From Paraburkholderia sp. (GTDB lineage Bacteria; Pseudomonadota; Gammaproteobacteria; Burkholderiales; Burkholderiaceae): DNA of 64,000 nt. The stretch spans positions 41,280-105,279 of the forward strand of contig NZ_SCRP01000031.1 of NCBI RefSeq assembly GCF_004298475.1. Direction: 5' to 3'. The notes under the pieces were generated by a model. That model had not been told where the DNA came from, did no database searches, and was given only the letters and a program-made list of their open reading frames with translations. The position numbers were made by a program, and so were the translations under genes. Positions 48,966 through 63,851 of this stretch are shown here, one piece after another. Position 1 is the first letter of the stretch; every line of letters begins with the position of its first letter.

Positions 48966-50693
48966 ATGAGAAAACGTGCTGTTTATGCACACCGAATGAC
49001 GAAGTTGGCAATCGGAATCGCTGCCGTTGCAACGCTGGCCGGCGGCATGGCCCGGGCGGCTTCGGACTATCAGGACGTGACCTTCGAGCGGCTGGAAAAC
49101 GCGCAGAGCGATCCGGGCTGGCTGACCTACTACCGCACGTACAACGGTCAATCGCACTCGTCCCTCAATCAGATCACCGCAGCGAATGTGGGCGATCTCA
49201 AGGCGGCGTGGACCTATAAGTTTCCCGAGGCATTGAAGCAGGGCTTCGAAGCGACGCCGATCGTCAACGGTAATTATCTGTTCATCACCACGCCGAAGAA
49301 CAACGTCTACGCATTCGACGCAAAAACCGGCGAAAAACTCTGGAACTACGAACCGAAGCTGGGCGCCGAGTCGTTCAAGACGGCCTGCTGTGACGTGGTT
49401 AATCGCGGTGTCGCCCTGTACGGCAAGAACGTCTATATCGCGATGCTGAGCGGCGAAGTGGCTGCGCTCGACGCGAAAACCGGCGATCTGGTGTGGAAGA
49501 AGCAGATGTTCGATCCCGGCCTCGGCTACGCGTTCTCGCTGGCGCCGCTCGCGCTGAACGATTCGATTCTCGTGGGCACGTCGGGCGGCGAGTATGGGAT
49601 TCGCGGCTATATCGCGGCGCTGAGCCCGAAGGATGGTTCGATCCAGTGGAAGCGCTACACGATCCCGGGCAAGGGCGAGAAGGGCAGCGAAACGTGGCCC
49701 GACGGCATGCAGGAGCACGGCGGCGGTGCCGCGTGGCTGACGGGTACGTACGACCCGAAATCGAAGACGCTGTATTGGGGCGTGGGTAACCCCGGCCCGT
49801 GGCTGGCGGCGCTGCGCCCGGGCGACAACCTGTACTCGGATTCGCTGCTCGCGCTCAATCCGGCGAACGGCGATCTCAAGTGGCATTACCAGTACACGCA
49901 GAACGATACGTGGGACTACGACGGCGTGAACACGCCGATCCTCGCCAAAATCAACTATGAAGGCAAGGATCACAACGCAATCATCCACGCCGACCGCAAC
50001 GGCTTTTTCATTGCCATCGATCGCGACACCGGCAAGCTGATTTACGCGAAGCCGTTCGTCAAGGCGACCTCGGTCACCGGCTACACGGACGATGGCCGCC
50101 CGGTTGCGGACGCAAGCAAGTATCCGAAGGCGGGTACGACGATCGATACGTGCCCGAGCTTTCTCGGTGGCAAGAACTGGTGGTCGATGTCGTACGACCC
50201 GGTTCGCCATATCGCCGTGGTGCCGACCCTGCATGCTTGCATGAGCTTGTCCGGCAAACGGGTCAGCTATATGGAAGGGCTGCCGTATCTGGGCGAGGGC
50301 TTCGAGATCAAGCCTGAACCGGGTAGCGAAGGCTTCGGCGAACTGCAGGCCATCGACGTGAATACGGGCAAGAAGCTCTGGAGCCACTGGACCAAGATGC
50401 CCTGGAATGGCGGCGTAGCGACGACGTCGACCGGTCTGTCGTTCAGCGGTTCGCTCGACGGTCACCTGTACGCGTTCGATACCGCAACCGGCAAGATCCT
50501 CTGGACGAGCCCGCAACTCGCAAGCGGCGTCATCGCGCAGCCTTCGGTGTTCGCAGTCGACGGCAAGGAATATGTCGCGGTGGTGGCCGGCTACGGCGGC
50601 GCGAATCCGATCTGGGGTGGCCCGATGGCCGACATCGCCAAGGATGTTCCGCGCGGCGGCACGCTGTACGTGTTCGCGCTTGGCCAGAACTGA
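48966..50693 (+). CDS. PQQ-dependent alcohol dehydrogenase, lanthanide type
   Basis: A 575-residue periplasmic quinoprotein with an eight-bladed propeller. The signal peptide ends near residue 31 (GMARA). Adjacent cysteines Cys141-Cys142 form the disulfide ring over PQQ. Glu209 (GTSGGEYGIRG), Asn275 (GVGNPGPW) and the catalytic Asp317 correspond to the active site of methanol dehydrogenases. Asp319 two residues later (WDYDG) is the extra ligand found in XoxF, ExaF and PedH enzymes that use La/Ce/Nd instead of calcium. It oxidises primary alcohols and passes electrons to a cytochrome c. CTGGAG precedes the ATG; it leads an operon with the next two genes. Confidence 0.93.
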   Translation: MRKRAVYAHRMTKLAIGIAAVATLAGGMARAASDYQDVTFERLENAQSDPGWLTYYRTYNGQSHSSLNQITAANVGDLKAAWTYKFPEALKQGFEATPIVNGNYLFITTPKNNVYAFDAKTGEKLWNYEPKLGAESFKTACCDVVNRGVALYGKNVYIAMLSGEVAALDAKTGDLVWKKQMFDPGLGYAFSLAPLALNDSILVGTSGGEYGIRGYIAALSPKDGSIQWKRYTIPGKGEKGSETWPDGMQEHGGGAAWLTGTYDPKSKTLYWGVGNPGPWLAALRPGDNLYSDSLLALNPANGDLKWHYQYTQNDTWDYDGVNTPILAKINYEGKDHNAIIHADRNGFFIAIDRDTGKLIYAKPFVKATSVTGYTDDGRPVADASKYPKAGTTIDTCPSFLGGKNWWSMSYDPVRHIAVVPTLHACMSLSGKRVSYMEGLPYLGEGFEIKPEPGSEGFGELQAIDVNTGKKLWSHWTKMPWNGGVATTSTGLSFSGSLDGHLYAFDTATGKILWTSPQLASGVIAQPSVFAVDGKEYVAVVAGYGGANPIWGGPMADIAKDVPRGGTLYVFALGQN

Positions 50694-50812: not shown

Positions 50813-52045
50813 ATGAAGAATATTCGATCGACCTCCCTGATTTTTGCCTCCCTGGTCGCTGCAGGGGCGGCATGTGTGCCCTCAATTGCCTCTGCACGGA
50901 CTGTTCGGGTTTGCATGTTTCCTGGCAACCCTACGACAGCGCTGGACACGTCCGTGGCGCGCGAAGTGTTTCGTGTTGCTGGTATCGAAGCAACGATCGG
51001 CGAAAAGGGCATCAAGGACGGTGACGACGATGGCGTTTCGACGCATGAGCTCGCAAAATCGCTGGCGCACAATTGCGACGTGGTCGCCGGATTCCCGGTG
51101 TCGTCGGACGCCGACAGCCACGGAACGTCCATGCTGTACTCGCAGCCTTACCTGCACTCCGGCTATGTGAGCATTGCGCCGCACGGCGCGGGCGCCGCGG
51201 CGCCGGAACATGAAACGATTGCCGCAACTTATTCCAGCCCGTCCCAACTGATCGCAGTCCAGCAGCGATATGCACACTACGATCTGGAGAACACCTCGGA
51301 GCAAACGGTCAACGCTGTGGCGACGAAGCGTGCTCAACGCGCCATCGTCTGGTATCCGGCGGTCGTGGCTTATGAGCGCGCGCATCCGCATCAGCGCTTC
51401 GATGTGGCGCCGGTGGCTTCCGACTATTCGGACTGGACCCTCGTGTTCGCGCTGAACTCGGGCAGCGAGGACCTGCGCCAACGTATCGATGCGGCGCTGA
51501 CGAAATTGCGCGAGAGCGGCGCACTGGCCAGGCTCACGCGTGAGTGGGCGCTGCCCGACAACCTGCGGGCAGCGGCGGTCAGCCGGCCGGTCCATGCGCG
51601 GCCTGCGTCCGGTGGAATCCGCCTTGCAGGCTATACACCTTCTTCCGGCTCATCCTTCGGCGGCGGTTTTATCAAGGTGGCGGACAGTACGGCCACCGCG
51701 GGGGTGCCGTCGTTCGACAAAGAGCAGGTGGCGCATGGAAAGGCGCTTTATACCAGTTCCTGCGCGAAATGCCACGGCGACAATCTGGAGGGTAACGTTG
51801 GGCCCGCGTTGAGCGGTCCGGCATTCGCTCCCGCCGAGCATTCTCATATCACGGTCAGCGGTATTTTCCAGTACATGTCCAACAACATGCCCGCCGATCA
51901 CCCCGGCCAGATGAAGGACGCGGATTATGCCGACCTGATGGCCTTCCTGCTCTATCAGAACGGTTACAACGCCGGCAAGGGTCACCTGACGGCAGACATC
52001 GCGAACGACTCCACGGCACCGCTCAACGCCGGGCCGCGCAAATAA
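50813..52045 (+). CDS. Fusion of XoxJ-like binding protein and XoxG-like cytochrome c
   Basis: A 410-residue periplasmic protein with a signal peptide cut at SIASA. Residues 30-250 form a type II periplasmic binding fold (RTVRVCMFPGNPTTALD, AKSLAHNCDVVAGFPVSSD) as in XoxJ/MoxJ. After a Gly/Ser linker (about 265-290) a class I cytochrome c follows, with heme motif CAKCH at 317-321 and a likely distal Met359 (NNMPADHP). In methylotrophs XoxJ and XoxG are separate genes next to xoxF; here one chain would both assist the dehydrogenase and take its electrons. It lies 119 bp after the dehydrogenase gene. Confidence 0.88.
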   Translation: MKNIRSTSLIFASLVAAGAACVPSIASARTVRVCMFPGNPTTALDTSVAREVFRVAGIEATIGEKGIKDGDDDGVSTHELAKSLAHNCDVVAGFPVSSDADSHGTSMLYSQPYLHSGYVSIAPHGAGAAAPEHETIAATYSSPSQLIAVQQRYAHYDLENTSEQTVNAVATKRAQRAIVWYPAVVAYERAHPHQRFDVAPVASDYSDWTLVFALNSGSEDLRQRIDAALTKLRESGALARLTREWALPDNLRAAAVSRPVHARPASGGIRLAGYTPSSGSSFGGGFIKVADSTATAGVPSFDKEQVAHGKALYTSSCAKCHGDNLEGNVGPALSGPAFAPAEHSHITVSGIFQYMSNNMPADHPGQMKDADYADLMAFLLYQNGYNAGKGHLTADIANDSTAPLNAGPRK

Positions 52046-52103: not shown

Positions 52104-52418
52104 ATGATTTCTAAAGCAAGACGAGTGTTCATGATTCAATCGATCGGCGTATGCGCGTCGCTCGCCATTGCGCAAGGCGCGAAAGCGGATGTGCCGCTCG
52201 TCGACGAAAACGATGCGGCTGCCAAGGGTCTGGGTTACCACGCCAACGCAGGCACGGTCGATGCAGCTCACACCCCGAAATACCAGGCCGGCCTGAAGTG
52301 TGCCAACTGCCGCTTCTTTAAAGGGGCGTCGAACGAGGCATCGGGGACTTGCCCGATGTTTCCCGGCAAGAACGTGGCCGCAGAAGGCTGGTGCAACGTC
52401 TACGCGAAGCGCGTCTGA
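52104..52418 (+). CDS. High-potential iron-sulfur protein (HiPIP)
   Basis: A 104-residue protein whose N-terminus KARRVFMIQS fits a Tat signal. Mature HiPIP holds a [4Fe-4S] cluster on Cys66, Cys69, Cys83 and Cys97 (KCANCRFF, GTCPMF, GWCNVY), the standard family spacing. It is a periplasmic electron carrier. Placed 58 bp after the cytochrome fusion, it probably carries electrons from the alcohol dehydrogenase and cytochrome to the terminal oxidase. GAGGAATG precedes ATG 52104. Confidence 0.93.
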   Translation: MISKARRVFMIQSIGVCASLAIAQGAKADVPLVDENDAAAKGLGYHANAGTVDAAHTPKYQAGLKCANCRFFKGASNEASGTCPMFPGKNVAAEGWCNVYAKRV

Positions 52419-54876: not shown

Positions 54877-55305
54877 TCACGGCCGTCCCTGTGGAACGGT
54901 CACAAAACCGATTTGTGTCATTCCTGCCGCTTGCGCTTGAGCCATCACGTCCGCGACACGCTCGTAGCGCACGGCACGGTCCGCATGAAGACGCAGCTCG
55001 GGACGCGGGCTCGCCGCAGCTGCCGCGATCAGTCGCGCGGAAAGCGCGCCGCTTTCGATACGCGTGCCATTCCAGAAGATCGATCCATCCGCCGCGATGC
55101 CCACGTCCACATGCTGCGCCGCCGTTGCCTCGGGCTGACTGACGACGCGCGGCAAGTCGATCTTCAGCGCATGCTGTAGCGCGGGTATCGTCACCATAAA
55201 CACGATCAACAGTACGAGCATGACGTCGACGAGCGGCGTCATGTTGATCTCGTTCATCAATGCATCGTCGTTGGCGTCGTCGCCGAAAGGTGCATTCATT
55301 GCCAT
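54877..55305 (-). CDS. exbD: ExbD, TonB energising complex
   Basis: A 142-residue protein with one transmembrane helix (about 25-44, VDVMLVLLIVFMVTIPALQ) bearing the proton-channel Asp in TPLVDVMLVLLIV, and a periplasmic domain (ELRLHADRAVRYERVADVMAQAQAAGM). The start at 55305 overlaps the end of exbB by 10 bp. With ExbB it uses the proton gradient to energise TonB. Last gene of the receptor-tonB-exbB-exbD transcript and convergent with the porin gene. Confidence 0.95.
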   Translation of the reverse strand: MAMNAPFGDDANDDALMNEINMTPLVDVMLVLLIVFMVTIPALQHALKIDLPRVVSQPEATAAQHVDVGIAADGSIFWNGTRIESGALSARLIAAAAASPRPELRLHADRAVRYERVADVMAQAQAAGMTQIGFVTVPQGRP

Positions 55306-56048
55306 TCGAGTGCTCCGTTGTTGTCGTCGACGCGCTGTGTGCGCGCCACCGCAGCGCCACGCGAGCCAGGCCGCATGTCCGCCACGAGGTAGGCATGCAA
55401 GTCGTGCGCGAAGCGGTTGAGCTTGTGTACGACGGTGCGATTGGCGCGCGTCAGCGCGTTATAGCCGAGCACGGCCGGGATCGCGACGAAGAGCCCGAAT
55501 GCGGTCATGATCAGCGACTCGCCGACCGGGCCCGCTACATGATCGATCGTGGCCGTCCCGCTTGCGCCGATCGCCATGAGGGCGTGATAAATCCCCCAGA
55601 CCGTGCCGAAGAGGCCCACGAACGGCGCAGTGCTGCCGATGGACGCGAGCATCGCAAGACCGCCCTGCATGCGTGCGATCCACTCGTCGAGCGTGTCTTT
55701 GAGGCAGCGTGTGATCCATTCCGAAGCGTCGATGCGCATGTGGATTTGCGGATTGGCGTCGCGATGATGCGCTGCGGCAGTCTTGCCCGCGCGCGCGAGG
55801 GCGAGTAAAGGGTTGTGCTGTGGGTTCGTCCCGGCAGCGTCCAGGCTTTGTACGCCGGCTTCGAATGAGCCCGCATGCCAGAACGGCGTAACGGCGCTAT
55901 CGACGTAGCGTGCGAGCCGGACGATGCGCACGAGCTTCACGACGATTACGACCCAGGAGAGCACCGACATCGTAAATAGCACGATGAGGATTGAGCGCGA
56001 GACGATATCGCCTTGCGACCAGACGTTTTCAAGTCCGTAATGTTGCAT
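55296..56048 (-). CDS. exbB: ExbB, TonB energising complex
   Basis: A 250-residue MotA/TolQ/ExbB protein from ATG 56048, with GGAGA before it. Three transmembrane helices (about 18-40, 128-150, 170-190) include the conserved SIGSTAPFVGLFGTVWGIYHAL and GPVGESLIMTAFGLFVAIPAVLGYN segments. It forms the pentamer around ExbD in the inner membrane. The frame extends upstream to 56180 but lacks a ribosome-binding site there. Confidence 0.95.
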   Translation of the reverse strand: MQHYGLENVWSQGDIVSRSILIVLFTMSVLSWVVIVVKLVRIVRLARYVDSAVTPFWHAGSFEAGVQSLDAAGTNPQHNPLLALARAGKTAAAHHRDANPQIHMRIDASEWITRCLKDTLDEWIARMQGGLAMLASIGSTAPFVGLFGTVWGIYHALMAIGASGTATIDHVAGPVGESLIMTAFGLFVAIPAVLGYNALTRANRTVVHKLNRFAHDLHAYLVADMRPGSRGAAVARTQRVDDNNGALEWQ

Positions 56049-56101
56049 AACGCGTTCTCCGTGATTCTCCGTGACCGCTGCTGCGGGTTCTTTCGATCGG
56101 A

Positions 56102-56845
56102 TCAGTTCTCCAGCCCGAAGGTGAAGGGCTGTTCGAACGTTACCGGAATGGGCACGCCCGCTTCGAGATACGGGTGACATGTGCTGCCCTGCAACGCGCC
56201 AAGCGCGGCTTCGTCGAGGCGCGGCGAGCCGCTGCTACGCTTTAATTGCGCGTGTTGAATGTGCCCTTCCGTGTCCACGACGAAGCGCACGAGTGCCGTG
56301 CCGGTTTCGCCGCGTCGGCGCGCCGCTTCGGGGTAGTCGGGTTGCGTGATGCTGCAATCGATATGCGAAACCGGTTTCGGGGTGCGTATTTCCTGCGGAG
56401 GCGAAGCCGGTTGTGCTATTGGCGGCGTGGCCGGTTGCGAAGTGGTGGGCGCAGTTGACGGTGGCGGCGCAACATTCGCTTCGCGCTGTGGTGTTGTTTC
56501 GATGTGCTGCGCCGGTTGCGGTAGCGCGGTGTTATTCCGGTTTGCTTTCGGTAATTGGCGCGGTTGCGGTCGCGGCTGCGGTTGCGAGTGGGCGGGTGCG
56601 ATTGCCGGTGTGCGTGCCGGAACGATTGCGCGCTGCGGCGCAGTTGCGACGATGCTCGGCGGCGTAGTCAGCAGGCGCGCGACGATTGTGCGTGGTGTTG
56701 CGAGCGGCACCACGCGCACCGTTTGCGCGCGCATCAACCACAACGCGAGTGCGGCATGGAGCGCGAGGACGGCGGCGAACACGACGACGACTTCGTTCGC
56801 CGGGTATTTTATCCACACGCCTGGCGCACCATTACCTCCAGGCAT
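56102..56845 (-). CDS. tonB: TonB energy-transducing protein
   Basis: A 247-residue protein. The N-terminal transmembrane helix (about 18-38) is followed by a Pro/Ala/Gln-rich periplasm-spanning region (about 75-160) and a C-terminal domain with ITQPDYPEAARRRGETGTAL, VRFVVDTEGHI and LKRSSGSPRLDEAAL, the standard TonB fold. Overlapping the receptor stop codon by 14 bp, it is translated with it. It appears dedicated to that receptor. Confidence 0.95.
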   Translation of the reverse strand: MPGGNGAPGVWIKYPANEVVVVFAAVLALHAALALWLMRAQTVRVVPLATPRTIVARLLTTPPSIVATAPQRAIVPARTPAIAPAHSQPQPRPQPRQLPKANRNNTALPQPAQHIETTPQREANVAPPPSTAPTTSQPATPPIAQPASPPQEIRTPKPVSHIDCSITQPDYPEAARRRGETGTALVRFVVDTEGHIQHAQLKRSSGSPRLDEAALGALQGSTCHPYLEAGVPIPVTFEQPFTFGLEN

Positions 56846-59129
56846 AGCGAAGTCCCACCCATGCGCCGCGCGGTGCGCCCACGCCGACGAACTGTTCGTT
56901 CACGGGATTCGCGGGATCGAACGAGTGGCCCGGTCCGTTGAAGAAGTTTTCTCCCAGTACGCCAAAACTCGCGTATTGCTTGTCGAGCAGGTTAGTCACG
57001 GTTGCGAAGATCTGCAACTGCTTTGTCACATTCCACGTCGCGTCGAGATCGATCAGGAAATAGCTTGCGATCTTGCCATTCGCGTCCTGGTTGTTTTCGT
57101 CGCCGCGCGCAAAGATGCTGCCGCGCCAGGTGAGATTCGTACCGAAATTGACCTGCGAGACCGGCGTGTAATCGAGCCTCAGCTTCACTGAATTGGCCGG
57201 GATGCCCGGAATACGGTCGCCGGATCGCACGACGATGTTGCCGTTCGCATCGGCGCTCGAATTGCTCCGGCTGCGCGAAACAAAAGTCGACTGATAGGTC
57301 GCATCGACGTAGCTATAGTTCGCGCCGATGCCGACCCGCCCGATGCGTGTGCGTGCACCCGCTTCGAAGCCCTGGCGGCGCGTTTTACCGACATTCTGGA
57401 AGTAACCCTGGCTGCTCGCGCCGCTGCTGATGAATTGAATGTCGTCGGAGAGCGTCGTACGCCAGGCCGCCACATTCCATGTGGTGGCCGAGCCGATCCG
57501 CCCGCGCGCGCCGATCTCGAACGTCTTTGCGATCACGGGGCGCAGATCCGGATCGGCGATGAAGTCGTTCGGCAGCGAGCAGGGCGCATTCGGGTCCGCG
57601 CAGGCGAGCTCGATCACCGTGGGCGAGCGCATGCCTTCGTTGTAGGTCGCATATACCGTGAGCGCTGTCGACGGGTTCCAGTTCAGACCGACGGCGGGGT
57701 TGAAGCGCGAGAACGTGTGACGCCCATCGAGCGCGGGCTGCAGGCCGCTTTCGTCGCCGATGTCGGCGCGTGCCCAGTCGTAGCGGCCCGATACCGTGGC
57801 CGAGAGTTGCTGCGTGAGTGAAAGCGTGTCGCTGAAGTAGAAACCGTAGTTCGCGCTATGCGTCTTCGCGTTGGTCTGCAACTGAAAATCGCCGACGCCC
57901 ACTGTCGCACGTGTTGCAGTGAAAGTGGCGTTCTGTACGGATTGCAGATATTGGGAATTCGCAAGGTCCGCGCTTGCGCCGAGCACCAGATCGTTTTTCA
58001 TCCCGAGCAGCTTGCCGAGCAGCGTCAATTGCAGGCTCGAACCGTAGCTGTCGGTTGTCACGTCGGACAGCGCGTTGGTGCCTTCCGGCGAAGTGGGATC
58101 GGTCGGATCGAAATCGTTGTTGATGTTGCTGCTGGTATTCCGGTTGTCGTAGTGGCGATAGTAGATATTGCCGCTCAATTCGACGTTGTCGGTAAAGTAG
58201 TGATCGCCCGAGAGCGTGACCCATGCGGCGCTGTTCTGGTTCTGGTCCGGATAGGTGTACGCCTGACGCGGATTGTCGAGGAACGAGCGCGGGATCGTTT
58301 GCGACCCCTGGAGCGTGTTGTCGGCGCCACCTGCCGAGAGCGAGAGGGTCGTATCGGCGTCCGTGTAACGCAGTTTGCCGAAGCCCTGGCGCACCTTGCT
58401 CGCATTGTGGTCGGCCCAGCCGTTATCGTTCGCGACGTTGCCCGTCACGTAGTAGTCGAGGTTCGGGCCGATCGTGCCGCCCTGTTCGATTTGTGCGGTT
58501 TTTCGTCCCCACGAACCGCCGCTGATTTCGGCGCTGCCCCCCGGATGATTGCGGCCATTCTTCGTCGCCAATGCGAGCGCGCCGCCCAGCGTATTGAAAC
58601 CGTAAGTCGGGTTCGAGCCGGGAATCAGCTGGATCGTGTCGATGGCGGCGAGCGGAATCAGATCCCAGTTGACGACGTCGCCGAACGGTTCGTTCACGCG
58701 CACGCCGTCGAGGAACACCGAAAGCCCTTGTGGCGTGCCGAGCAGCGGCGAGGCCGTGAAGCCGCGATAGTTGACGTCGGTTTGCCACGCGTTGCCCTGA
58801 GCCTCGTTGATATCGACGCTCTGGAGGTTCTTCTCGAAGTAGTCGGAAAGTGTGGCGCGGTGTTGCTGTTCGATGTCGCGCGCGCGTACCGTTTGCACGT
58901 TCGCGGGAACCTGCGTGAGCGGCGTGCCGATGCCGAGCAGCGGTGTCGTGCCGATCACGACGATGGGCGCGAGTTGCTTTGCGGCCGTGTCGTCGCCAGC
59001 CGTGGCAGGCGGAGTGCTCTGTGCCAGGACGAGGTGCGGGACACCTGCAAGCGTCGTGCCGAAGGTAAGGATGAGGCCCACGCGGCGCCTGATGTGCAGC
59101 CGGACAAGATGGCTTTGGAATAGGCGCAT
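56832..59129 (-). CDS. TonB-dependent outer-membrane receptor
   Basis: A 765-residue receptor from ATG 59129 (GTG 59144 is in frame too; neither has a clear ribosome-binding site). The signal peptide ends HLVLAQ; a TonB box-like segment (APIVVIGTT) and plug domain (IPLAAIDTIQLIPGSNPTYGFN, NTLGGALALATKNGR) come before a 22-strand barrel ending GAWVGLRYAWR. The family includes siderophore, cobalamin and lanthanide-chelate receptors. Its ligand is unknown, but it has its own tonB, exbB and exbD and sits beside a lanthanide-type dehydrogenase system, so a lanthanophore receptor is a reasonable guess. Confidence 0.92.
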   Translation of the reverse strand: MRLFQSHLVRLHIRRRVGLILTFGTTLAGVPHLVLAQSTPPATAGDDTAAKQLAPIVVIGTTPLLGIGTPLTQVPANVQTVRARDIEQQHRATLSDYFEKNLQSVDINEAQGNAWQTDVNYRGFTASPLLGTPQGLSVFLDGVRVNEPFGDVVNWDLIPLAAIDTIQLIPGSNPTYGFNTLGGALALATKNGRNHPGGSAEISGGSWGRKTAQIEQGGTIGPNLDYYVTGNVANDNGWADHNASKVRQGFGKLRYTDADTTLSLSAGGADNTLQGSQTIPRSFLDNPRQAYTYPDQNQNSAAWVTLSGDHYFTDNVELSGNIYYRHYDNRNTSSNINNDFDPTDPTSPEGTNALSDVTTDSYGSSLQLTLLGKLLGMKNDLVLGASADLANSQYLQSVQNATFTATRATVGVGDFQLQTNAKTHSANYGFYFSDTLSLTQQLSATVSGRYDWARADIGDESGLQPALDGRHTFSRFNPAVGLNWNPSTALTVYATYNEGMRSPTVIELACADPNAPCSLPNDFIADPDLRPVIAKTFEIGARGRIGSATTWNVAAWRTTLSDDIQFISSGASSQGYFQNVGKTRRQGFEAGARTRIGRVGIGANYSYVDATYQSTFVSRSRSNSSADANGNIVVRSGDRIPGIPANSVKLRLDYTPVSQVNFGTNLTWRGSIFARGDENNQDANGKIASYFLIDLDATWNVTKQLQIFATVTNLLDKQYASFGVLGENFFNGPGHSFDPANPVNEQFVGVGAPRGAWVGLRYAWR

Positions 59130-59157
59130 GATTTTTATCGGCACATCAGGAGTGAAC

Positions 59158-59206: not shown

Positions 59207-60751
59207 TCAGAAGAAACCGAGTGCGTCGGCGTCGTAACTCACCAGCAGGCACTTCGTCTGCTGATAGTTCGACAGTGCCATCTTGTGCGTCTCGCGTCCA
59301 ATGCCGGATTGCTTGTAGCCACCGAACGCCGCGTGCGCGGGATACAGGTGATAGCAATTGGTCCACACGCGCCCGGCTTCGATCTCGCGGCCCATGCGAT
59401 ACGCGCGGGAGCCGTCACGCGACCAGACGCCCGCACCCAGTCCGAAGTAGGTGTCGTTCGCGATCTCGATGGCTTCCTCTTCGTTCTTGAACGTCATCAC
59501 CGATGCGACCGGGCCGAAAATTTCCTCCTGGAACACACGCATCTTGTTGTTGCCGAGCAGCATCGTCGGCTTGACATAGAAGCCTGCGTCCAGATCGGAT
59601 GCGGGCGTAGCCCGTGCGCCGCCGGTCAGGCATTGCGCGCCTTCATTGCGTCCGATGTCGATATACGAAAGGATTTTATCGAGCTGTTGCTTCGATGCCT
59701 GCGCACCGATCATCGTCTGCATGTCGAGCGGATTGCCGGCCTTGATGCGTTCGACGCGGGCCACCGCGCGTTCGATGAATTTCTCGTAGATCGATTCCTG
59801 AATCAGGATACGCGACGGGCAGGTGCAGACTTCACCTTGATTCAGGGCGAACATCGCAAGGCCTTCCAGTGCCTTGTCGAGGAACGCGTCGTCATGGTCG
59901 AGCACGTCGGCGAAGAAGATGTTCGGGCTCTTGCCGCCCAGTTCGACGGTCGAGGGAATCAGGCTTTCGGCTGCCGCGCGCAGAATGCGCTTGCCGACCG
60001 GCGTCGAACCCGTGAACGCGATCTTGGAGATGCGCGTGCTGGTGACCAGTGCTTCGCCAGCTTCCTTGCCAAAACCGTTCACGATATTGATCACGCCCGG
60101 CGGGAACAGATCGCCGATCAATTCCATCAGGACGAGAATCGATGCCGGTGTCTGCTCGGCGGGCTTCATCACGATGCAACAACCTGCTGCCAGTGCGGGC
60201 GCGAGTTTCCAGGCCGCCATCAGCAGCGGGAAATTCCAGGGAATGATCTGGCCGACCACGCCGATCGGCTCGTGGAAGTGATACGCGACGGTGTTGTCGT
60301 CGATTTCCGAAATGCCGCCTTCCTGCGCGCGGATGCAGCCCGCGAAGTAGCGGAAGTGATCGATGGCGAGCGGCACGTCGGCAGCCATCGTCTCGCGCAG
60401 CGGCTTGCCATTGTCGATGGTCTCCGCTACTGCCAGAAGCTTGAGATTCTGTTCCATCTTGTCGGCCGCTGCGAGCAGCAGGTTCGCGCGATTGGCGACC
60501 GACGTCTTGGCCCACTTGCGGCGGGCGGCGTGTGCGGCATCGAGAGCGGCATCGATATCGGCAGCGTTCGAGCGCGGGATCTCACAGAACACGCGGCCAT
60601 TGATCGGCGAGATGTTTTCGAAATATTCCTGGCTGATCGGTGCGACCCATTTGCCGCCGATGTAGTTGTCGTACCGGTTGCGATAGGGGTATTCGATATC
60701 GATGCCAAGCTGTTTCAGATCGAAGGGATTCAATTGGTATCTCCGGTTCAT
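59207..60751 (-). CDS. NAD-dependent aldehyde dehydrogenase (ExaC/AcoD-like)
   Basis: A 514-residue class 3-type aldehyde dehydrogenase that would oxidise acetaldehyde or longer aldehydes to acids. Glu270 ([14 protein letters not shown]) is the general base, and Cys309 (NQGEVCTCP) the nucleophile; FTGSTPVGK is the NAD-binding segment. ATG 60751 has no strong ribosome-binding site; TTG 60733 ([10 protein letters not shown]) has CGGAGA six bases before it and may be the true start. A sigma-54 promoter lies 42-57 bp upstream. It performs the second step after the PQQ alcohol dehydrogenase. Confidence 0.95.
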
Positions 60752-60792
60752 TGTTTGGAGGAGAACAACGTGAGTGTCGCAAGGGCATCTCA

Positions 60793-60808
60793 AGCAATAT
60801 GCGTACCA
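60793..60808 (-). promoter_or_regulatory. Sigma-54 promoter of the aldehyde dehydrogenase
   Basis: On the minus strand TGGTACGCATATTGCT matches TGGCAC-N5-TTGCW with one mismatch and correct GG/GC spacing. Transcription would start near 60782, about 30 bp before the ATG. AcoD/ExaC-type genes are commonly sigma-54 dependent. Confidence 0.78.
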
Positions 60809-61173: not shown

Positions 61174-63210
61174 TCAATGATCGGTCGGCTCGACCGACGG
61201 CATTCGCCGGTAGATGGTGGTGCGCGATACGCCGAGCGCGCGCGCCGCCGCGGATACGTTTCCGCCATGGTGGGTGAGCGCGGAGGCGATTGCTGCCGTC
61301 GCGACGTCCTGCAAGCGCGTGTTAGCCGTGGCCTGGACATCCGCATTGGGCTGCGCAACTGGTGTAACCGGCGTAACCGGTGTACCCGGCGTATCGCACG
61401 GCGTTGGCGTATTGCGGCAACTGACGTTGTCGAAGAAATCGTCGGGCAGATGTTCGCGCCGGATTACGCCATCTTCGTCGACCATGGCCGCAGCCGTGCG
61501 CAGCAGGTTGCAAAGCTGCCGGAAATTGCCCGGCCAGGCACAGCTTTCGAATAGCGCCATCACTTCGGGCTCGATGCTCAGTGACGGCTGGTGCGCGCTC
61601 TCTTGCGCATTTCCGTACGCGTTTCCGTGCGACTCGTACTGCAGCATCTTCTGGACGACGATGGCCAGGTCGGTACGGTCGCGCAACGGTGGCAGCCGCA
61701 CCGTGAGGCCGTTGAGCCGGTAATAGAGGTCCTCGCGGAAACGGTTCTGAGCGATCATGTCGCGCAAGTCGCGGTGCGTTGCGCAGATGATCGAGAGGTT
61801 CACGGGAATGGCCTTCGTCGAACCGAGCGGATTGACGACCCGCTCCTGCAGCACGCGCAACAGCCGCGCTTGTAACGGATGCGGCATGTCGCCGATTTCG
61901 TCGAGGAAAAGCGTGCCGCCGTCGGCCTGCAGCAGTTTGCCGATGGCTCCCTTGCGTCGCGCGCCGGTAAATGCGCCTTCTTCATAGCCGAACAGTTCGG
62001 ATTCGATCAGCGATTCCGGGATCGACGCGCAATTGACTGCCGTGAACGGTCCGTCACGCCGCGACGAATCGTTATGGATCGCCTGCGCGAGCAGTTCCTT
62101 GCCCGTGCCGGTTTCGCCGGTGATCAAGATCGGGATGTCCTTGTCGATGACCTTGCGCACCTTGGTGATCACCGACGCGACCTGCGGGTCTCCGGTATCG
62201 AGATATTTGAGCCGCGATAATCCTGCCGCCGCGCCCTGAGCCTGAGCGCCGGTCGCGCGTGCGGATGGATTAGCCGTGTCGTGCACCTCGGGCGGTCGGT
62301 TGCCGGGCATTTGTGCGGCGCGCCGGAACTGCACGCGTGCGCACACCACCGCACTATTGCCGAGGTTCAGCATCAGATGCTGGTCGGCGCTGGTGCGCAT
62401 GCGTTCGATCAGTTGCGCGCACGTCACGTCGAACAGCGACGGCAGCGTGTGCGCGCGCAACGCGGCGAGCGGCATACCGAGCTGGAATTGCGCGCTGCGG
62501 TTCGCGGACAGGAACCGGCCGTCTGCCGTGAACGCGACGATCCCTTCCATCAACGTACCGAGGAACTCGGGCCGTCCATGGAAGGACACGCGCAGGGCTT
62601 CCCGAAAGGTTGCCGTAAACAGATGGTTCTCGATCATCTGCACGGACATCCTGGCGAGCGCCATCGTGTGCTGGTGATAACTGCGGTGGTCGCCGGTTAC
62701 GTCGAGTACGCCGGCCACATCGCCGTACGGGTCGAGGATCGGCACGCTCGAACAGGTCATGAAGTGATTCGCGGCGAGGTAGTGCTGATCGCCGTGGACG
62801 ACCATCGGGCGCAATTCGGCGAGCGCCGTGCCGATCGCGTTGGTGCCCTGCTGGTCTTCAGCCCAGTTCGCACCGGCTAGCAGTGCGACCTTCGCGGCGC
62901 GGGGAAGAAAGTCGTCGTCGCCGATCGAGTGCAGGATCAGGCCTTGTGCGTCGGTGAGCACGATCATGCTGTGCGTGTTGGCGATCTGTTCGTGCAGCGT
63001 CTCCATCACCGGCATTGCTTGCATGCACAACACGTGGTTCTGCTCGCGCTTGAGTTCGAGCGCCGTGCTCGAAAGGACGTCGTAGTCGGGTCGTGTGCCC
63101 ACCAGCAGGCCGAACGTCTCGGATCGCTCGTGGGCCTTCTTGATTTCCGCTGGTGGCCGGTTAGCCGGCGTGCCGCCTGCCGCGGCCGCCTGAGGAACGT
63201 CATCGCGCAT
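61174..63210 (-). CDS. Sigma-54-dependent activator, AcoR family
   Basis: A 678-residue enhancer-binding protein from ATG 63210 with GGAGGAGACA upstream. A GAF-type sensor domain spans about 70-200 ([20 protein letters not shown] is typical of AcoR) and a PAS-like segment about 215-290. The AAA+ domain has Walker A GETGTGKE 365-372, the sigma-54 contact loop GAFTGA 412-417 and Walker [11 protein letters not shown] Fis helix-turn-helix ends the protein ([21 protein letters not shown]). [13 protein letters not shown] linker precedes the helix-turn-helix. It probably senses an alcohol or aldehyde signal and activates the three -24/-12 promoters in this window. Confidence 0.93.
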
Positions 63211-63851
63211 TGTCTCCTCCGGAGAATGTGGCCGGTCGTTTTCCGGACTGTTTTCAATCCATAAAGCAAGTACCGGGCCAAACAAGCACGCGGCATACGC
63301 GATTTTCCAGGGCAGGTGGCGAGCAAGGTACCGATGAACGGACCCGCGCCTTGGCTGCTGTCTGCGCGCAATACAAAACAAATCAAATCAAATCAATTGC
63401 GGCTCGCTGCGAAATACCGGGAGCGGCATCGTCGAAACTGAAAATCAGAAGATTAGGTCCATTCAGACAAACGAATCACAGCGTCGTTAGTTCAGTCACG
63501 CGCCTGGGGTTGTGTCGAATGCAACAAGAGGGCCAACGTGCGATTCGGTCGGACTCGCGCCAAAGAATAGTTTTCGTGCGGTTGTTTGGCAGCGCAACGG
63601 CTATCGAAATCACGGGTATGGCGTGCAACTGTTCAGAAAATGATCAGGGTGCGTCGTATTTGGGCAGTGGGGGAGCGCGTCTTTACTCCTTTCCCTTGGA
63701 ATCAGGCGCTTTCAGACTTTGGCACGGTTCGTGCTGTCAGTTATTCGGGTCACTTCGAGCCGCAGAATCAATGGAGATTTTTCTAAACAGTTTCACCATG
63801 TTCAGGCCGCGAAACGGCCGGAATATGCAGTGAAGGAGACAGGGAGAGAAG
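63211..63851. other. Divergent regulatory region between activator and acs
   Basis: 641 bp without a convincing gene. It holds TGTGTCGAATGCAACA at 63511-63526, similar to the site upstream of the alcohol dehydrogenase, and the sigma-54 promoter at 63720. Confidence 0.5.
63720..63734 (+). promoter_or_regulatory. Sigma-54 promoter of acs
   Basis: TGGCACGGTTCGTGC matches the -24/-12 consensus with one mismatch (GTGC for TTGC) and correct spacing. It shares TGGCACGG and GTGC with the element before the alcohol dehydrogenase. 118 bp upstream of the acs ATG. Confidence 0.7.

Follow-up and report, generated by a model that had tools for sequence, protein, structure and literature searches.

What XoxJ contributes to lanthanide-dependent alcohol oxidation is unsettled, and a review names regulator, chaperone and docking aid as candidate roles (PMC12997753). 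PedG, XoxJ and MxaJ are thought there to aid either maturation of the dehydrogenase or its contact with the cytochrome, and in M. extorquens both XoxJ and the cytochrome XoxG are described as required for XoxF-dependent growth (PMC7391723). The window, the whole stretch of 64,000 nucleotides from Paraburkholderia sp. analyzed here, encodes a binding-protein-like part (J) and a cytochrome c (G) in one chain behind a PQQ-dependent alcohol dehydrogenase. Is this fusion genuine, how do its two parts relate to XoxJ and XoxG, and may it reveal what XoxJ does? Its host is a soil bacterium.

The fusion is genuine. It is encoded by a single intact open reading frame (50813-52045, + strand) of 410 aa without internal stop, which begins 119 bases downstream of the end of the dehydrogenase frame (50693) on the same strand; both the single 410-residue chain and its place right after the dehydrogenase, as given in the preliminary description, are thus confirmed. 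The translation opens with a signal peptide (residues 1-28, 50813-50896), recognized by eye from an ASA cleavage motif, followed by a divergent J domain of SBP_3/XoxJ-like fold (residues 29-253, 50897-51571), a variable linker (residues 254-298, 51572-51706) and a cytochrome c domain (residues 299-410, 51707-52042), all on the + strand. PF13442 matches residues 305-379 of the latter with 49.6 bits against a Pfam cut-off of 27, which together with the heme c attachment motif CAKCH at residues 317-321 (51761-51775, + strand) identifies it as a cytochrome c; CAKCHG is kept in 49/49 orthologues. The linker ranges from 32 to 63 residues in the 49 orthologues, carries GGFIKV close to its end in the window protein and a FIKV-like motif in 38 of the 49, and is the least conserved part (mean identity to 47 orthologues 22% over residues 251-298, 57% for J and 66% for G). 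It had been described as a Gly/Ser linker; a variable linker does exist, but Gly and Ser make up 33% of it in the window protein and only 24% (median) over the 49 orthologues.

Fusions of this kind recur in the family to which the window belongs. Among 299 sampled family genomes, one of which is the window's own (match cut-off E 1e-10), 80 match the fusion and 77 cover both domains, the matches spreading over 7 of the 25 genera. Three genomes (G114, G251, G232) match in the cytochrome part only, one (G171) has its fusion reported as two overlapping pieces of a single frame, as checked for L050, and one (G044) holds the fused as well as a free form. A scan of genome contigs found only two relatives. 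The protein of a Paraburkholderia MAG (L031) is 92% identical in amino acids to the window fusion. In a wider sample of 399 genomes of the order, nine match the fusion at E 1e-20 or better: two, from the same family, over both domains, while the matches of the other seven are confined to the cytochrome region or its vicinity. Two plasmid records label the Burkholderia multivorans and Caballeronia proteins just 'transporter substrate-binding domain-containing protein' and 'c-type cytochrome'.

The adjoining dehydrogenase (48966-50693, + strand; 575 aa) passes the cut-off of TIGR03075 with 564.2 bits and has the vicinal CysCys pair and a WDYDG motif. Its nearest solved chains are 6zcw (411.7 bits), a quinoprotein ethanol dehydrogenase in the PDB, 6zcv (407.9), 1flg (349.2) and 1kb0 (343.9); we take 6zcw and 6zcv to be PedH and 1flg to be ExaA. 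As the best XoxF, 6dam, stands further down the PDB list with 322.3 bits, an identity as XoxF is not supported, and by sequence the enzyme is nearer PedH than XoxF. WDYDG contains the extra Asp of lanthanide enzymes, presumably the residue two past the catalytic Asp. A role in lanthanide binding is described for this Asp (PMC8170126). All dehydrogenases of the window's own fusion group (group I) for which the comparison covered those places have both motifs. Of the preliminary description, then, a single chain of J-type periplasmic binding domain and cytochrome c immediately behind a PQQ dehydrogenase with the lanthanide-type Asp is supported; the metal in the enzyme would be a lanthanide and not calcium.

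A high-potential iron-sulfur protein (HiPIP; 52104-52418, + strand; PF01355, 80 bits) is encoded next and may be the next electron carrier. On the - strand are genes for ExbD, ExbB and TonB (54877-56845; Pfam), an adjoining TonB-dependent receptor (56832-59144; PF00593) that is a candidate receptor for lanthanide or other metal or for a metallophore, the acetaldehyde dehydrogenase ExaC (59207-60793; NF050026, 902.5 bits against a cut-off of 900) and a sigma-54 activator with a GAF domain (61174-63381; Pfam), a candidate regulator. Because a PedH-like dehydrogenase and ExaC occur together, the locus is probably of the ethanol type, with ethanol or a similar alcohol, not methanol, as substrate.

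The arrangement was followed through 35 wide loci (L031-L063, L068 and L069, L063 being the window itself), 31 with a full-length fusion and four (L051-L054) with the cytochrome part only; two pairs, L032/L061 and L036/L068, look like the same locus twice. In 30 of the 31, a same-strand dehydrogenase immediately precedes the fusion. In the exception, L057, the fusion is full length (L057:6002-7195) and no recognizable dehydrogenase was found in the 2.7 kb fetched upstream. Relatives of the HiPIP occur in at least 14 of the 35 loci, of the TonB receptor in at least 22, of the sigma-54 activator in at least 19 and of ExaC in at least nine, all lower bounds as the loci mostly extend about 6 kb per side and some are ended by contig ends. 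The window's genome encodes pqqE (532.7 bits, over the cut-off). It also encodes, on contig C20 (L065), a second PQQ dehydrogenase, 85% identical and with WDYDG, with neither J nor cytochrome found within its 1.5 kb flanks, so that the partner specificity of the fusion is less clear.

How closely the J domain is related to XoxJ depends on the comparison used. SBP_bac_3 (PF00497) matches it with 22.4 bits, below the cut-off of 26.4. The best NCBIfam SBP family, the quinoprotein-dehydrogenase-associated TIGR03871, gives 30.1 bits against a curated cut-off of 212.15, and this score does not discriminate, as proteins that are presumably ordinary SBPs score up to about 33 bits. When 23 J domains are combined into a profile and searched against the PDB, generic SBPs lead the hits, and MxaJ (9ism) follows only at E 0.0054. 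What connects J to XoxJ is a second group of fusions (group II), to whose J domains (5 rows) those of group I (47 rows) align in hhalign at 98.6% (E 7e-16, score 106.7). Scores fall to 88.7 for separate J proteins (L105-L109, 5 rows), 49.0 for canonical J (25 rows) and 40.9 (76%) for six generic SBPs, all from the window's genome, so by this measure J proteins are closer to group I J than generic SBP_3 proteins are. Group II J scores 219.6 with canonical J but, as a caution, also 110.9 with generic SBPs; searched against the PDB, the J of one member (L150) finds the solved XoxJ 6onp first (55 bits).

In a tree, fused group I, fused group II, the separate J of L105-L109 and canonical J form distinct lineages, in an order that the tree leaves open, apart from the six generic SBPs (support 100/98), and group I sits on a very long stem, so that a long-branch warning limits the tree. 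An AlphaFold2 model built from three rows is of low confidence (pLDDT 43 for the whole protein, 54 for the J domain), and Foldseek with the latter ranks MxaJ 5sv6 third amid amino-acid SBPs, which is weak evidence. Across 23 rows, 46 J positions are invariant, including both cysteines and three positions of the acidic loop described below; an ordinary SBP of the window's genome (L116) likewise has both cysteines. No other J was found in this genome. Taken together, the sequence comparisons make group I J a distant XoxJ relative, linked mainly through the bridging group II; the XoxJ label of the preliminary description survives as such kinship, but not as membership of TIGR03871 or as the closest resemblance in the PDB.

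The J domain has a conserved acidic loop (residues 68-80, 51014-51052, + strand; KDGDDDGVSTHEL), EF-hand-like but one residue short, which in group I is placed between the second strand and the helix running to CDV. Its motif [DN]G[VI]S occurs in 49/49 orthologues and the longer DDG[VI]S..EL in 45/49. No such loop was seen at that place in the other J proteins examined, and in L101-L104 a short acidic stretch lies elsewhere, just before CD, reading NGEDG in three of them. The DG[VI]S loop would be a new detail of J proteins. Identity as a Pfam EF-hand was rejected, since no Pfam model matched any of five fragments at E up to 10 with HMMER filters on, and metal binding at the loop is a guess.

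The cytochrome domain is less easily connected to XoxG. TIGR03872 (XoxG/cytochrome cL) scores 29.1 bits against a cut-off of 147.8, and a separate partner cytochrome (that of L105) also stays below it with 36.7 bits. For comparison, cytochromes encoded between dehydrogenase and J, counted as XoxG-like by this position and not by name, were taken from 31 other loci in two sets of 17 and 14; the G domain aligns with these over only 18 and 25 columns round the heme, while the alignment between the sets themselves extends over 108 columns. XoxG ancestry, implied by the name first given to the fusion, was accordingly discarded. Group I cytochromes do align over 104 columns (99.8%, E 3e-28) with those of L072-L076, a likeness that is partly due to selection as these were found with a profile of the window fusion. 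The L072-L076 cytochromes occur near other PQQ-type proteins, and in L072 the cytochrome is N-terminal to a PQQ-type propeller in one open frame, presumably the reverse of the usual quinohemoprotein order.

Fusions of J to a cytochrome recur in several bacterial groups. In a sample of 398 genomes of the phylum, 41 have a TIGR03871 match (cut-off E 1e-12), and among the frames fetched and checked, from a part of the match places, at least five (L146-L150) run from J into CxxCH. A sixth (L171) comes from another class; of 289 genomes sampled there, three matched a fusion profile over its length, and two of these had been known beforehand. These group II fusions, from at least six other genomes, are J-first and carry another type of cytochrome. 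A WDYDG dehydrogenase lies ahead of the fusion in 5/5 (L146-L150, L171 standing outside this count), and that of L150, the only one compared, is nearest to 4mae (438.4 bits; presumably the XoxF of SolV), with 6zcv at 380.3 bits. Searching plasmids with the L150 fusion gave no match that spanned 80% of the query. Separate genes in the order dehydrogenase, J, cytochrome are found at five loci (L105-L109). At two further places (L155:3944-5707 and L156:3782-5605), adjoining WDYDG PQQ dehydrogenases, J is followed by apparent ankyrin repeats, recognized from below-cut-off model matches in L155 and by eye in L156.

Between the two groups, the cytochromes can be aligned over just 29 columns round the heme, which suggests that their G parts differ in type. 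On this basis, and counting the published Methylacidiphilum fusion discussed below, J has probably become fused to a cytochrome on more than one occasion. A clade uniting the J domains of groups I and II is not rejected (AU p = 0.31) in a tree limited by its long branches. The linker motif was set aside as proof of a single fusion origin, since it is FIKV-like in L146, L148 and L150 and absent from L147 and L149.

J can apparently also be lost. At L051-L053, the dehydrogenase is accompanied by a free cytochrome, and the roughly 12 kb fetched around each showed no J, and G114 and G251 give no other match to the fusion beyond the cytochrome part; since the cytochrome part occurs in these without J, J may be dispensable. 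In a quick dehydrogenase tree of 24 rows, L051-L053 fall in two places amid fused loci (supports 99 and 89, the second modest), which suggests two losses of J if the fused state is the older one.

Given the above, the most likely reading, held with moderate confidence, is that the fusion is the periplasmic partner of a lanthanide-type, probably ethanol-oxidizing PQQ alcohol dehydrogenase, in which J docks and the tethered cytochrome accepts electrons. Under this scenario, the protein would be exported to the periplasm, where the N-terminal J, with its XoxJ/MxaJ-related binding-protein fold, would dock on the dehydrogenase and so hold the C-terminal cytochrome c near the PQQ site. The cytochrome would then take two electrons, one at a time, and hand them on; the HiPIP encoded next may be the recipient. 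This reading is favored by the dehydrogenase ahead of the fusion in 30 of 31 full-length loci, the WDYDG and CysCys motifs, the kinship of J through group II, the separate genes in like order at L105-L109, the group II fusions behind WDYDG dehydrogenases and the acceptor role named for the published Methylacidiphilum fusion. Against it count the cytochrome-only loci, L057, the second dehydrogenase with neither J nor cytochrome in its 1.5 kb flanks and the indirectness of the J kinship. Since the J domains of group II resemble generic SBPs well too, docking is favored slightly less firmly.

J may instead be a tethered maturation chaperone that binds the apo-dehydrogenase and helps to insert PQQ and metal, the cytochrome taking over once the enzyme is active, so that maturation is coupled to electron acceptance with no standing complex. 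MxaJ and XoxJ have been proposed to bind partly folded apo-enzyme and aid such insertion (PMC12997753), and loss of xoxJ in M. extorquens is described as mirroring loss of xoxF1 and xoxF2 when La is given (PMC7391723). However, dehydrogenases remain well conserved at the cytochrome-only loci, where no J was found in the vicinity, and a chaperone would not need to be produced one-to-one with the electron acceptor. The conserved acidic loop could bind metal, yet it matches no Pfam family. This account is possible, though clearly less probable than docking.

A more elaborate version, in which the D-D-G-[VI]-S loop of J is a Ca or lanthanide site and the fusion a combined metallochaperone and electron acceptor, first loading metal (perhaps PQQ as well) and then taking electrons through one docking surface, appears unlikely. 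It is likewise unlikely that only the cytochrome matters and that J persists as a passive, all but vestigial anchor serving for tethering or stability. The lower conservation of J relative to G (57% against 66%), its long stem branch and the cytochrome-only loci in two places amid fused loci, as two losses would give, all agree with it, but the 46 invariant J positions, with both cysteines and three loop residues among them, do not. Nor does the dN/dS of J against L031, which is 0.18, as for the whole protein, with 0.12 for the linker (residues 254-298) and 0.16 for G; purifying selection acts on the conserved fusion. Because the linker too is under such selection and 77 of 299 family genomes, with matches in 7 of 25 genera, hold the fusion at full length, a frame or assembly error joining two genes, which the preliminary description had raised against itself, is rejected as wholly improbable.

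The locus may also bear on what XoxJ does. The joining of J to cytochromes of different types, in group I, group II and the Methylacidiphilum protein, argues for J acting at the interface of dehydrogenase and cytochrome, and the cytochrome-only relatives L051-L053 are natural comparisons for its role.

Fusion of the two partners is not without precedent. The preliminary description treats XoxJ and XoxG as separate proteins throughout the known lanthanide systems, which is contradicted by the XoxG:J protein (cytochrome cGJ) published for Methylacidiphilum (PMC8498564, PMC6688271, PMC8170126) and called the physiological electron acceptor of XoxF (PMC7082304). No description of the Burkholderiaceae fusion was found in the literature covered, which consisted mostly of titles and the starts of abstracts, with subscription papers largely outside its scope. 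As described, cGJ of M. fumariolicum SolV and strain Kam1 shares with the window fusion a cytochrome c and a XoxJ-type part in one chain beside a PQQ dehydrogenase. The order of cGJ would be G:J, judging from its notation, and its J is truncated and accompanied by a separate xoxJ (PMC6688271), whereas the window fusion is J-first, its J measures about 225 residues, and the genome yielded no further J. Unlike cGJ, it adjoins a PedH-like enzyme.

With XoxJ, MxaJ and PedG (TIGR03871, TIGR03870), the window J shares an SBP_3-type sequence, the Cys in RVC..P and CDV, the W.P motif and a dehydrogenase neighbor, but it differs in its acidic loop, its fusion to a cytochrome and a TIGR03871 score of only 30 bits against a cut-off of 212. 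Similarly, the window G is, like XoxG/cytochrome cL, a small cytochrome c beside a PQQ alcohol dehydrogenase, but differs in its 29.1 bits on TIGR03872 and in resembling XoxG-position cytochromes only round the heme. With the lanthanide-dependent ethanol dehydrogenase PedH and its ped cluster, the locus has in common a dehydrogenase nearest 6zcw, the extra Asp, the CysCys pair and an aldehyde dehydrogenase nearby. In P. putida, however, PedF (cytochrome) and PedG (binding protein) are described as products of separate genes (PMC12997753), whereas J and G are fused in the window. The window fusion is thus a useful variant and not a first, since cGJ precedes it, and it moves the XoxJ question into ethanol-type lanthanide enzymes, in one protein with separable halves.
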